Position numbers and translations under genes: made by a program. The notes beneath the pieces were generated by a model. That model was given only the letters and a program-made list of their open reading frames with translations. It did not search any database and was not told where the DNA came from. Positions 1 through 4,503 of a DNA stretch of 64,000 bases are shown here, one piece after another. Position 1 is the stretch's first letter. Every line of letters begins with the position of its first letter. The DNA is from Thermobifida alba (GTDB lineage Bacteria; Actinomycetota; Actinomycetes; Streptosporangiales; Streptosporangiaceae), in assembly GCF_023208015.1 (NCBI RefSeq), contig NZ_CP051627.1:558001-622000 (forward strand), given 5' to 3'.

Positions 1-223
1 CGGAGCAGCGCAGGCTCACCGCGAGCACCGCGTCGCGGGCGGCCTTGGCCTCCGCGTAGGTCGCGGGGCGCGCCGAGCCCCGGATGCGCCGCAGGGTCGC
101 GCTGATGCGCTCGGGGGACCTGCGCTCCAGCAGCCGGGCCAGTCCCACCGCGCAGCGCGCGGCCCACTTCTCCCGCACGGTGAGCCGGACGTCGCTGCGC
201 TGCAGCACCACGTTCTCGCTCAT
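1..223 (-). CDS. Lasso-peptide leader peptidase (transglutaminase-like, B2 type), 5' part only
   Basis: The first 74 codons are in the window; the rest lies beyond the left edge. The ATG overlaps the stop of the RRE gene in an ATGA, so the two are translationally coupled. The visible N-terminus is basic and helical (MSENVVLQRSDVRLTVREKW...), and the fragment stops at ...AVLAVSLRCS. In B2 proteins this is just before the region holding the catalytic cysteine of the transglutaminase-like protease. In lasso systems this enzyme cleaves the leader from the precursor after the RRE protein has delivered it. The family call rests mainly on the position after precursor, cyclase and RRE genes, and on the Ala/Arg-rich approach to the conserved cysteine. 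The catalytic Cys-His-Asp triad cannot be checked here. Confidence 0.75.
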   Translation of the reverse strand, partial: MSENVVLQRSDVRLTVREKWAARCAVGLARLLERRSPERISATLRRIRGSARPATYAEAKAARDAVLAVSLRCS

Positions 224-492
224 CGCAGGACCATCCCGCTCTCCAGCAGGCCGGTGACGAGCGCGGCGACGTCGCGTTCGGCGGTGGCCTGCTCCACCTC
301 GTACTCGCCGACCAGGAACTGGGCGACGTCGGCGGGCGCCTGCCCGTCCAGCAGCCGCTGGACGATCTGCGCCGCGGTGTCGTTGAGCTCCCAGTACTCG
401 CCGCTGCGGCCGTCCAGCAGCACCATGCCGTAGTCGGTCTCGGCCGCCGAGACGTCCGGGCGCAGCCGGAACTCAGCTCCTGTTGTCTCCAC
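220..492 (-). CDS. Lasso-peptide RiPP recognition element protein (PqqD-like, B1 type)
   Basis: A 90-residue protein with the PqqD-like winged-helix fold. A beta hairpin (GMVLLDGRSGEYWELNDTAAQIVQRLL) is followed by helices, with the ELN-TA-I motif typical of RRE proteins in RiPP clusters. In lasso systems the B1 protein binds the YxxP part of the precursor leader and presents it to the B2 protease. Its start overlaps the last 20 bases of the cyclase gene, and its stop overlaps the start of the protease gene, so the three form one tightly packed operon. PQQ biosynthesis is not a sensible alternative, because none of its other genes are present. Function follows from family and context. Confidence 0.9.
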   Translation of the reverse strand: METTGAEFRLRPDVSAAETDYGMVLLDGRSGEYWELNDTAAQIVQRLLDGQAPADVAQFLVGEYEVEQATAERDVAALVTGLLESGMVLR

Positions 493-2308
493 CGTTTGCT
501 CCCTGTAGGACTCGTTCGCGGGAACGCAGCCACAACTCGACGGTGAGGGTCAGTTCCATCCCCCAGTTCGGCCCGTGGAACGAGTACGGCCGCATGACCT
601 GCTCCACCAGCGGCTCCGGGTCGATCAGGCCCAGTTCCGCGAGCCGGGACTCCCGCCATATCTGAACTATTCGGTCACGCTGTTCGGCGAACCCCTCCGC
701 GGCGAGCGGAGTCCCGTCGGTCTTGGAGCGGCGGTGCAGGAACTCCTCGGGGAGGAGGTCGGACACGGCCGCCTTCATGAGGGGTTTGAACTCGAACGGG
801 GTCGACCGCCCCTCGGGGCGCACCCGCAGGCAGGCCTCCACGACCCGGTCGTCGAGGAAGGGCGACTCCGCGCTCGGCAGGCCGTCGACGCTCATCTGGT
901 GGATCAGCCGCAGGTCGCGGCCTGTGGAGCGGACCGTGGCCAGGTCGGCGTGGCGGCCGCGGGTGGGGGCGAGCGGCTCCAGCGTCTCGGCCGCCGCGTC
1001 GAAGCGGGCCAGGACGCGCTCCCTGGCCTCGGCGGTCAGCCAGGGGCCGCAGCTGGGCAGTGAGTCCCAGCCGAACAGGGCGTTGCGGGGCGCCTCCCCG
1101 GTGGCCACGAGGCGTCGGGTGGCGGCGAACCACGCGCGCAGGTCGCGGCGGTCGGCCAGGGAGGAGACGGTCTCCGACAGGGGCAGGCCCAGCAGCAGGC
1201 GGTGGCCGCGGACCAGCCGCAGCGCGGTGAGCGGACGGCTGCGCAGCAGGTCGTGGTAGAGGGTGGGGGTCCCGCACAGCAGCTGGTCGCCGCCCAGGCC
1301 GTCCATGTGCAGGCGGGCGCCGTGCCGGTGGGCCAGCCGCAGTCGGCCCAGCACCCGCGGGGCGCTCAGGACGGCCACCGACGGCTCGTCCAGCAGAGGC
1401 AGCTCCTCCCCGTCGAGACCGGCGTAGAAGTCGGGGAGGTCCCGGGTGGAGAACACGACGTGGTCGACCGAGGGGAAGGAGCGCAGGGCGATCCTCGCCC
1501 AGTGCAGGTCGTCGTCGGTGTCCAGGTCGCTGCTGAGGGTCAGGGCGACGACCTTCGCGGGACCGGAGGAGGCCAGCGCGCACAGCGGGGTGGAGTCGAG
1601 GCCGCCGGACAGGTCGGCGCTGACCACCTGTCCGCCGTGGGTGCGCGCGTCCACGGCGTCGGTCAGGGCCGCGCGCAGCAGCGGGGCCCCGGCCGCGATG
1701 TCCAGCTCCGGTTCGGGGGGCCGCCACCACCGGACCACCCGGTGGTCGCCGCCGTGCAGGCCGAGGTCGAGGTAGTGCCACGCGGGAACGGGGTCGACGC
1801 CGGGCCACACGGACGTCTCGGTGAGCGGGTGCGGCAGGCCGTTGAACAGCCGCAGGGCCAGGACGTCGGGGTCGGGGGAGACGCCGGACAGGCCGGCCAG
1901 GACGTCGGAGCGGTCCGCGGCGACGCGGGCCGCTCCGACCCGGGCGTGGAAGACCCGGCGCAGTCCCGAGGCACTGCCCTGCACGCGCATCCGGTCGCCC
2001 ACCACCGCGACGAGGTGGAAGCTGCCCGGCAGGGCGTGCGCGACCCGGTCGAGCCCGGCCAGGCCGTCGAGCCGCTCAAGCTCGGCGCGCAGCCGCTCGG
2101 GCCCGACCGCGCAGCGTCCGATCACGGCGAGGCGCCGTTCCCCGGCTTCGACCAGCAGGAACTGGTCGTCGGGGAGGGAGCCCACGATCCAGGGGCGTCC
2201 CGAGCGGTGGGTGGCCAGGCACTGCGCTGCCGGAAGGCGGTCGGCCGCACGCCCGAGAGCGTCCTCGTCGGGGAAAACGGCGAAGTAGGGGCTGATACGA
2301 CCGACCAC
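473..2308 (-). CDS. Lasso-peptide cyclase (asparagine synthetase-like macrolactam synthetase)
   Basis: About 611 residues with the asparagine-synthetase B architecture: an N-terminal glutaminase-like half without the usual catalytic Cys2, then an ATP-pyrophosphatase half with the PP-loop SGGLDST near residue 250. This family adenylates the side chain of Asp/Glu in the core and closes the ring onto the N-terminal amine. The start chosen is a GTG at 2308 preceded by GGAGGG; the longer open frame upstream runs back across the precursor gene and lacks family sequence. It starts 37 bases after the precursor stop and overlaps the RRE gene. True asparagine synthetase is unlikely because of the missing Cys2 and the precursor and RRE neighbours. 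The spacing from ribosome site to GTG is short (3 bases), so the start is slightly uncertain. Confidence 0.9.
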   Translation of the reverse strand: MVGRISPYFAVFPDEDALGRAADRLPAAQCLATHRSGRPWIVGSLPDDQFLLVEAGERRLAVIGRCAVGPERLRAELERLDGLAGLDRVAHALPGSFHLVAVVGDRMRVQGSASGLRRVFHARVGAARVAADRSDVLAGLSGVSPDPDVLALRLFNGLPHPLTETSVWPGVDPVPAWHYLDLGLHGGDHRVVRWWRPPEPELDIAAGAPLLRAALTDAVDARTHGGQVVSADLSGGLDSTPLCALASSGPAKVVALTLSSDLDTDDDLHWARIALRSFPSVDHVVFSTRDLPDFYAGLDGEELPLLDEPSVAVLSAPRVLGRLRLAHRHGARLHMDGLGGDQLLCGTPTLYHDLLRSRPLTALRLVRGHRLLLGLPLSETVSSLADRRDLRAWFAATRRLVATGEAPRNALFGWDSLPSCGPWLTAEARERVLARFDAAAETLEPLAPTRGRHADLATVRSTGRDLRLIHQMSVDGLPSAESPFLDDRVVEACLRVRPEGRSTPFEFKPLMKAAVSDLLPEEFLHRRSKTDGTPLAAEGFAEQRDRIVQIWRESRLAELGLIDPEPLVEQVMRPYSFHGPNWGMELTLTVELWLRSRERVLQGANGGDNRS

Positions 2309-2345
2309 GGACCCTCCGGAAACGATGTTGCGTGCAGACGGGCGA

Positions 2346-2489
2346 CTAGCGGAGCCAGCGGGGGAAGATGAGGTAGATCTCGACGCCCGAATTCGCGGTG
2401 TACCAGCCGGTGGACTCCTTGAAGCCGCCGGCCTTGGCGATCTGCGGGGCGGTGTACTTCTTGCGCTGCGTCGGCTTCTTTTCCTGCAT
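2346..2489 (-). CDS. Lasso-peptide precursor (fusilassin-like), 47 aa
   Basis: A short gene that would be missed as an independent call, since the frame stays open upstream. The ATG at 2489 has a strong AGGAGG site 11 bases upstream. The leader (28 residues, MQEKKPTQRKKYTAPQIAKA then GGFKESTG) carries the Y-x2-P-x-[IL]-x3-G-x5-T-x signature that the RRE protein binds, with Thr at the conserved penultimate leader position. The predicted core is WYTANSGVEIYLIFPRWLR (19 residues). By analogy with fusilassin of Thermobifida fusca (WYTAEWGLELIFVFPRFI), the ring would join Trp1 to Glu9. The core differs at positions 5, 6, 8, 10-13, 17 and 18, and has an extra C-terminal Arg. The cyclase, RRE and protease genes follow directly. 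Confidence 0.93.
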   Translation of the reverse strand: MQEKKPTQRKKYTAPQIAKAGGFKESTGWYTANSGVEIYLIFPRWLR

Positions 2490-2557
2490 GATCTGCCTCT
2501 CCTCCTGAAAGGGGTATCTGGGTGAGCGCTCTGGGTAACTGCCGGCATGCGGCACAA

Positions 2558-2586
2558 AGGCTAGGGGATTCCGATGCGTATGGCAA
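2558..2586 (-). promoter_or_regulatory. Promoter of the lasso-peptide operon
   Basis: Reading the minus strand, TTGCCA (2586-2581) and TAGCCT (2563-2558) are separated by exactly 17 bases, close to the housekeeping sigma consensus. The predicted transcript starts near 2551, about 60 bases before the precursor ATG. Seen in sequence; not tested. Confidence 0.65.
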
Positions 2587-2589
2587 CAG

Positions 2590-3792: not shown

Positions 3793-4503
3793 TCACCGGG
3801 CCCCGTCCTCGTCCTCGGCGAGGATGCGGTACACGCCCCTGCGCGCCTCGGCCAGCAACCGCTTGGCCCGCTCGACCTGCTCGGCGGTGCCCACGTGGGA
3901 GACCTGGGCCGCGGCCGCCGCCAGCTGTGCGGCCAGGGAGGCGAGCTCGGCGTGCTGGGCGTGCTCCTCCTCGTACTCCCGGGCGGCGCTCTCCCAGGGC
4001 GGGGTCAGCTCCGCGGCGTGCTCGGCGACGTGGGCGTGCCCCTCCTCGGTCAGTTCGTAGGGGCGGCGGCGCCCCTCCCCGCCGGCGGCGGGGGCGACCA
4101 GGCCCTCGTCCTCCAGCTGCTGCAGCATCGGGTAGACGGAGCCGGGGCTGGGCCGCCACGCGCCGTTGCTGCGCTCCCGGCCCTCCTTGATGATCTCGTA
4201 GCCGCTCATCGGTTTCTCCGCCAGCAGCAGCAGGATTCCGGTGCGCACGTCGCCGCGCCGGGCGCGCGGACCGCGGCCGCCGCGACGGCCGCCGAAGAGG
4301 CCGAACGGGCCGTGGTGGGCGCCGAACGGCCCGGCGGGGGGCATCCCCCACGGTCCGTTCGGCGGCGGGGGCGGCACCGGGGGCCCGAACCCGCTACGGC
4401 GGTGCGGACCGCCCCCGCCCGCCCACTGCGCGAAGAGCCAGGTGCGGCGACCGACGCGGCGGGGGCCGCGCCTCCAGTCCCAGGGCATCGCTGCGGTGAC
4501 CAT
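3793..4503 (-). CDS. PadR-family transcriptional regulator with a Gly/Pro-rich N-terminal extension
   Basis: 236 residues. Residues 1-85 are a low-complexity Gly/Pro/Arg/Trp-rich region. Residues 86-165 are the PadR winged helix (RTGILLLLAEKPMSGYEIIKE, then GSVYPMLQQLEDEGLV and a YELTEEG wing). The last 70 residues form a helical dimerisation arm rich in Glu and Ala. PadR proteins are usually autorepressors that also control nearby efflux or stress genes. The ATG at 4503 has a GAAGGAGGG site just upstream. An inverted repeat lies about 40 bases upstream and could be its operator. No obvious target gene is adjacent, and the ligand cannot be inferred. Confidence 0.9.
   Translation of the reverse strand: MVTAAMPWDWRRGPRRVGRRTWLFAQWAGGGGPHRRSGFGPPVPPPPPNGPWGMPPAGPFGAHHGPFGLFGGRRGGRGPRARRGDVRTGILLLLAEKPMSGYEIIKEGRERSNGAWRPSPGSVYPMLQQLEDEGLVAPAAGGEGRRRPYELTEEGHAHVAEHAAELTPPWESAAREYEEEHAQHAELASLAAQLAAAAAQVSHVGTAEQVERAKRLLAEARRGVYRILAEDEDGAR

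Follow-up and report, generated by a model that had tools for sequence, protein, structure and literature searches.

The left edge of the window, meaning here the whole 64,000-nucleotide stretch that was analysed (bases 558001-622000 of a single-contig genome of 4,903,256 bases), carries a minus-strand lasso operon, A-C-B1-B2-D. The operon is defined by its genes, their order, their families and their conservation in related genomes, and we conclude with high confidence that it is a functional-looking fusilassin-type lasso peptide operon of a Thermobifida species. The cluster is an ordinary, intact-looking member of its family that probably works, its product being predicted. The core adds a member to the known fusilassin kind, whose siblings in print were matched by sequence for fusilassin/fuscanodin and by name for cellulassin and halolassin.

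Operon layout and gene families

The operon is tightly packed (Table 1). Genes A and C are separated by 37 nt, C and B1 overlap by 20 nt, B1 and B2 overlap by 4 nt, and D begins 7 nt after B2. The reading frames of all five genes are open, with start sites and overlaps kept. The whole B2 frame was located in the genome at L005 10223-9807. The lasso cluster of precursor, cyclase, RRE and protease described in an earlier note on this DNA was borne out, as was its 47-residue precursor with a YxxP...T leader.

Table 1. Features of the lasso operon and its upstream region (window positions unless L005 is given)
Feature	Coordinates	Strand	Basis
Conserved upstream block, -100 to -21 from the ATG	2510..2589	-	54/80 columns invariant in 4 Thermobifida
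Candidate promoter TTGCCA-N17-TAGCCT	2558..2586	-	TTGCCA first base 2586, TAGCCT last base 2558; conservation of CTGTTGCCA
Shine-Dalgarno stretch AGGAGGAGAGG, 5' of A	2496..2506	-	Sequence
Precursor gene A, 47 aa	2346..2489	-	Translation; Pfam DUF5972 above cut-off; relatives in 3 other Thermobifida genomes
A leader, 28 aa	2489-2406	-	
A core WYTANSGVEIYLIFPRWLR, 19 aa	2405-2349	-	
A stop	2348-2346	-	
Lasso cyclase C, 611 aa	473..2308	-	GTG start at 2308 after GGAGGG; Asn_synthase; motifs
B1, stand-alone RRE (PqqD-like), 90 aa	220..492	-	NF033530; PDB 6jx3 chain B
B2 leader peptidase, first 74 of 138 aa (remainder beyond window edge)	1..223	-	NF033537; Transglut_core3
ABC exporter D	L005 9799-8063, outside window		ABC_membrane and ABC_tran

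Family scans of C used the frame from 2335. They assigned it to Asn_synthase (Pfam 2.4e-36); the macrolactam cyclase model NF033561 also matched at 1e-70, but with a score of 239 against a cut-off of 300. The protein carries SGGLD, of the ATP-binding SGGxD type, at 234 and DGLGGD at 336. B1 scored above the cut-off of the lasso PqqD/RRE model (NF033530, 7.4e-31) and matched the solved structure of TfuB1 (PDB 6jx3 chain B) at 4.8e-43 over residues 1-89. The whole B2 was identified as lasso_biosyn_B2 (NF033537, 2.8e-29, above cut-off) with Transglut_core3 (1.5e-24). B2, predicted to act as a transglutaminase-like Cys protease of the Cys-His-Asp type, has five Cys and a single His, His112. Sequence searches of the PDB with C (E 0.001) and B2 (E 0.01) returned no relative. 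The leader of A was assigned to DUF5972 with 24.2 bits against a cut-off of 22.6; with the lasso leader model NF033521 it scored 14.6, below the cut-off of 19.

Several neighbouring genes were also recorded. On the other strand, a Ser/Thr-kinase-type gene (L005 7188-8102) ends in overlap with the end of exporter D. A PadR-family regulator gene lies near the cluster (window 3793-4503) and has matches near the lasso genes of the other Thermobifida and of Actinorugispora. The genome also has two neighbouring cutinase genes, one of which is identical at 298/300 positions, counted from the alignment, to PDB 3vis (T. alba Est119), and on this basis the species is probably T. alba.

Precursor and predicted product

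The precursor divides into the leader MQEKKPTQRKKYTAPQIAKAGGFKESTG and the core WYTANSGVEIYLIFPRWLR. The leader has the YxxP signature (Y12 and P15) and a Thr at -2 (T27). Glu9, within core positions 7-9, is the sole acidic residue of the core, and W1-E9 is therefore the only canonical ring option; the FPR tail motif is F14-P15-R16. In an alignment of six precursors, Y12, P15, G21, F23, K24, T27, G28, E37 (core Glu9), P43 and R44 were invariant in all six. Three of these lie in the core, namely the acceptor Glu9 (or the residue that corresponds to it), Pro15 and Arg16. Within the genus the last 18 leader residues are near-fixed, two species matching the window at 17/18, while the cores vary.

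What is known of the fusilassin pathway is the basis on which we infer all chemical steps, as well as fold, export, expression and activity. By this analogy, B1 would bind the leader around Tyr12 and Pro15, and B2 would cleave after Thr27-Gly28. C would then activate Glu9 with ATP and couple it to the Trp1 amine around the threaded tail, and D would export the finished lasso. The predicted product is a 19-residue lasso with a nine-residue ring and a neutral monoisotopic mass of 2365.237, or 2209.136 should the final Arg be trimmed.

Comparison with fusilassin, cellulassin and halolassin

Fusilassin (fuscanodin) of Thermobifida fusca has the same genes, the same leader signature, a nine-residue W1-E9 ring and the FPR tail motif. 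The core found in genome G040 agrees letter for letter with the printed fuscanodin/fusilassin core, and the G040 locus is thus the studied one. Its proteins are identical to those of the window at 74% and 77% for C (two contig pieces), 79% for B1, 86% for B2 and 84% for D. Identity to fusilassin is 14/18 in the last 18 leader residues, 9/18 in the core, 6/9 in the ring and 3/9 in the tail; the window core differs by E5N, W6S, L8V, L10I, I11Y, F12L, V13I, F17W and I18L and by an additional C-terminal Arg. The earlier note's reading of the core is upheld on each of these points, namely the candidate W1/E9 pair, the FPR motif, the nine differences with the added Arg, and the replacement of Glu5 by Asn and Trp6 by Ser. 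In fusilassin, Glu5 is an additional acidic residue that is unused as acceptor.

The T. cellulosilytica locus (L007, core WIQGKWGLEIYLIFPRYL), the presumed source of cellulassin, also has Glu9, and its C, B1 and B2 are 83%, 79% and 88% identical to those of the window. Its leader end is identical at 17/18 positions, the core at 11/18, the ring at 3/9 and the tail at 8/9, and it is without the terminal Arg. Thus, the window ring is closer to fusilassin (6/9) and the window tail to T. cellulosilytica (8/9). In the T. halotolerans-like genome G111 (core YKSGRGLELWLFLPRMV) the leader end is again identical at 17/18 positions and C at 79%, whereas the acceptor is at position 8, predicting an eight-residue ring, and only 5/17 core residues match. 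The G111 core is possibly halolassin, which is known here by name. Because the G111 core differs, the idea that the window core is halolassin renamed can likely be rejected, a judgement made on G111 rather than on the letters of halolassin itself.

Reviews describe the production of cellulassin and halolassin by cell-free biosynthesis (PMC8498205), the making of halolassin with FusBCE and the ability of FusC to accept replacements at several sites within ring residues 2-6 (PMC11920963); E5N and W6S both fall in this stretch. According to a further review, two groups reproduced fusilassin in vitro with A, B1, B2 and C, and its enzymes tolerate rings of 7-10 residues (PMC13352647). On the effect of the extra Arg19 the literature points both ways. 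FusBCE matured a variant of fusilassin that was extended by a single Thr at its C-terminus (PMC12338566), and the review has added tail residues typically lowering product formation (PMC13352647).

The claim that the core is new stands in part. Neither the exact core letters nor parts of them had a match in the main texts of the literature searched, but the kind of cluster is known and sibling products are in print. Searching for T. alba together with lasso peptide returned, in that literature, only a mention of a T. alba graspetide precursor.

Upstream region

The earlier note had also listed a promoter in the stretch that ends at 2586. A scan with the sigma-70 consensus gave 0 sites in this region, yet the site finds support when relatives are aligned: CTGTTGCCA is retained in 5/5 aligned genomes and TCCCCTA in all four Thermobifida. 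The reading of the promoter as unsupported was accordingly rejected. The block at -100 to -21 is also set apart from the region further upstream, where only 36/200 columns (-320 to -121) are invariant in the same 4 species.

Two 8-bp palindromes, TGCCGGCA and GAGCGCTC, lie below the candidate promoter (window 2524-2547), are kept in three of the four Thermobifida in the alignment, and are possibly an operator. The inner pattern of the conserved upstream block was considered as a genome-wide regulon mark and rejected: it occurs exactly at 1 place in the genome and at 1 more with 3 mismatches, and a control pattern gave 1.

Conservation among relatives

With the window precursor alone as query, 4/4 Thermobifida genomes matched, the other three at E values of 1.1e-18, 1.3e-16 and 2.8e-14. 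Each of these three relatives lies beside the cyclase, and with these E values the precursor is not a chance reading. Searching 200 genomes of the family with C gave 122 with a match at E <= 0.001, mostly far relatives; the closest were in G086 (T. cellulosilytica-like, 83%), G111 (79%), G040 (74% and 77%, the match being split between two contig pieces), G042 (66%) and G045 (59%).

A profile of the six precursors matched 16 of 341 family genomes at E <= 0.01. Six of these were strong (E <= 3.4e-22) and were all rows of the profile itself; the other 10 were weak (E 7.9e-4 to 9.8e-3) and comprised 7 precursors with GNDRL...SKN cores, which resemble the citrulassin core listed in PMC12427821, 2 with other cores and 1 that was not read. 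Among 394 genomes across the class 13 matched, 4 of them strongly and again as profile rows. Taken together with the single-precursor search, these counts show that few of the genomes searched carry a fusilassin-type precursor and that those that do are mainly Thermobifida. A distant precursor at about L067 1530 (G241), with the core YVGLRNRESLLGYPRNIW after ...LTG, Glu8 and a YPR motif, is perhaps an outlying relative.

In 4/4 Thermobifida genomes the locus includes C, B1, B2 and D and is flanked by the kinase gene and by the genes that lie upstream of A; the kinase gene adjoins the lasso genes in 5/5 genomes where that side was read. In Actinorugispora, D had no match within the stretch of 13.8 kb, and the kinase gene comes after B2. 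In T. cellulosilytica, exporter D (L051 3154-5014) matches in two pieces, in different frames and with ~120 nt between them, reflecting either assembly error or decay.

A second lasso locus

Outside the window, the same genome has a second lasso locus (L046 4638-8556, G000:C1 about 1541637-1545555) that includes B1, B2 and a methyltransferase of the PCMT type. The precursor there has the core GAADDDTADMNTAKYY, which the matching locus of G086 shares without change and which has DTAD at positions 6-9, as described for cellulonodin-2 in an excerpt of PMC13001092. The cyclase is 99-100% identical to that of G086 in two pieces, its reading frame being broken in the window genome. Over 14.2 kb (L046 1-14227 against L047, the borders of the stretch lying beyond) the genomes of the two species are 99.6-99.8% identical, compared with 87.7% over the stretch of the fusilassin-type locus, a sign of recent exchange of the L046 stretch.

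Alternative explanations

One alternative is a silent or decaying cluster, with the genes present and the product not made. The broken cyclase frame at the second lasso locus indicates that decay (or sequencing error) does occur in such loci. At the operon studied here, however, there are five open frames with kept starts and overlaps and an upstream block conserved in four species, and we regard silence or decay as very improbable. Still harder to credit is that the operon makes another PqqD-containing RiPP. PqqD-like domains are found in many systems, but the B2 and cyclase families, the Thr at -2 and enzymes that are 74-86% identical to those of the fusilassin locus leave this reading with almost no weight.

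The lasso might also be changed further, by trimming of Arg19, by spontaneous deamidation or succinimide formation at Asn5-Ser6 in the ring, or by a neighbouring enzyme, all of which are compatible with a fusilassin-type operon. Asn-Ser is prone to deamidation. The adjoining kinase-type gene would be a candidate enzyme, although its position may be plain synteny, as conserved gene order extends to the other flank as well, and none of the 7 operon and flank proteins scanned belongs by name to a known lasso-tailoring family. Truncated tails, cut by a host carboxypeptidase, have been observed on expression, according to part of the review (PMC13352647). On balance we consider such a change unlikely, if clearly more plausible than the two previous readings, and retain the unmodified 19-residue lasso as the predicted product of the fusilassin-type operon.

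Ring size and the cyclase tree

Three species, that of the window, T. cellulosilytica and T. fusca, have the acceptor as core residue 9; in G111, Actinorugispora and G045 it is residue 8. A cyclase tree was rooted on six other cyclases of the family, with the T. fusca row joined from two contig pieces. It grouped the four Thermobifida cyclases with support of 100/100 and the three with nine-residue rings with 98/98, leaving the eight-ring relatives outside; support for the order within the three was poor (44/0). One change of ring size is needed among the six cyclases on this tree. Since the nearest outside rows are eight-ring, that state is probably the older one, judged on six sequences with rings predicted for all but fusilassin.

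The tree fits the proposal, to which we give about even weight, that a single natural expansion from an eight- to a nine-residue ring took place among the fusilassin loci of Thermobifida. One codon would have been inserted into the core in the ancestor shared by the window species, T. cellulosilytica and T. fusca, with little change in leader and machinery. By alignment, the inserted residue would be the Trp at position 6, now Ser in the window.

The operon supplies one more natural core, from a heat-loving genus, for a model lasso system used in in vitro engineering. Together with its siblings it forms a natural series with a near-fixed leader, a variable core and a difference in ring size across 79%-identical cyclases, which makes the series useful for testing the rules by which FusC-type cyclases accept substrates, although the fusilassin enzymes are already known to tolerate rings of 7-10 residues. 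If the ring expansion is true, the series would reveal whether ring size is set by residues of the cyclase, and by which.
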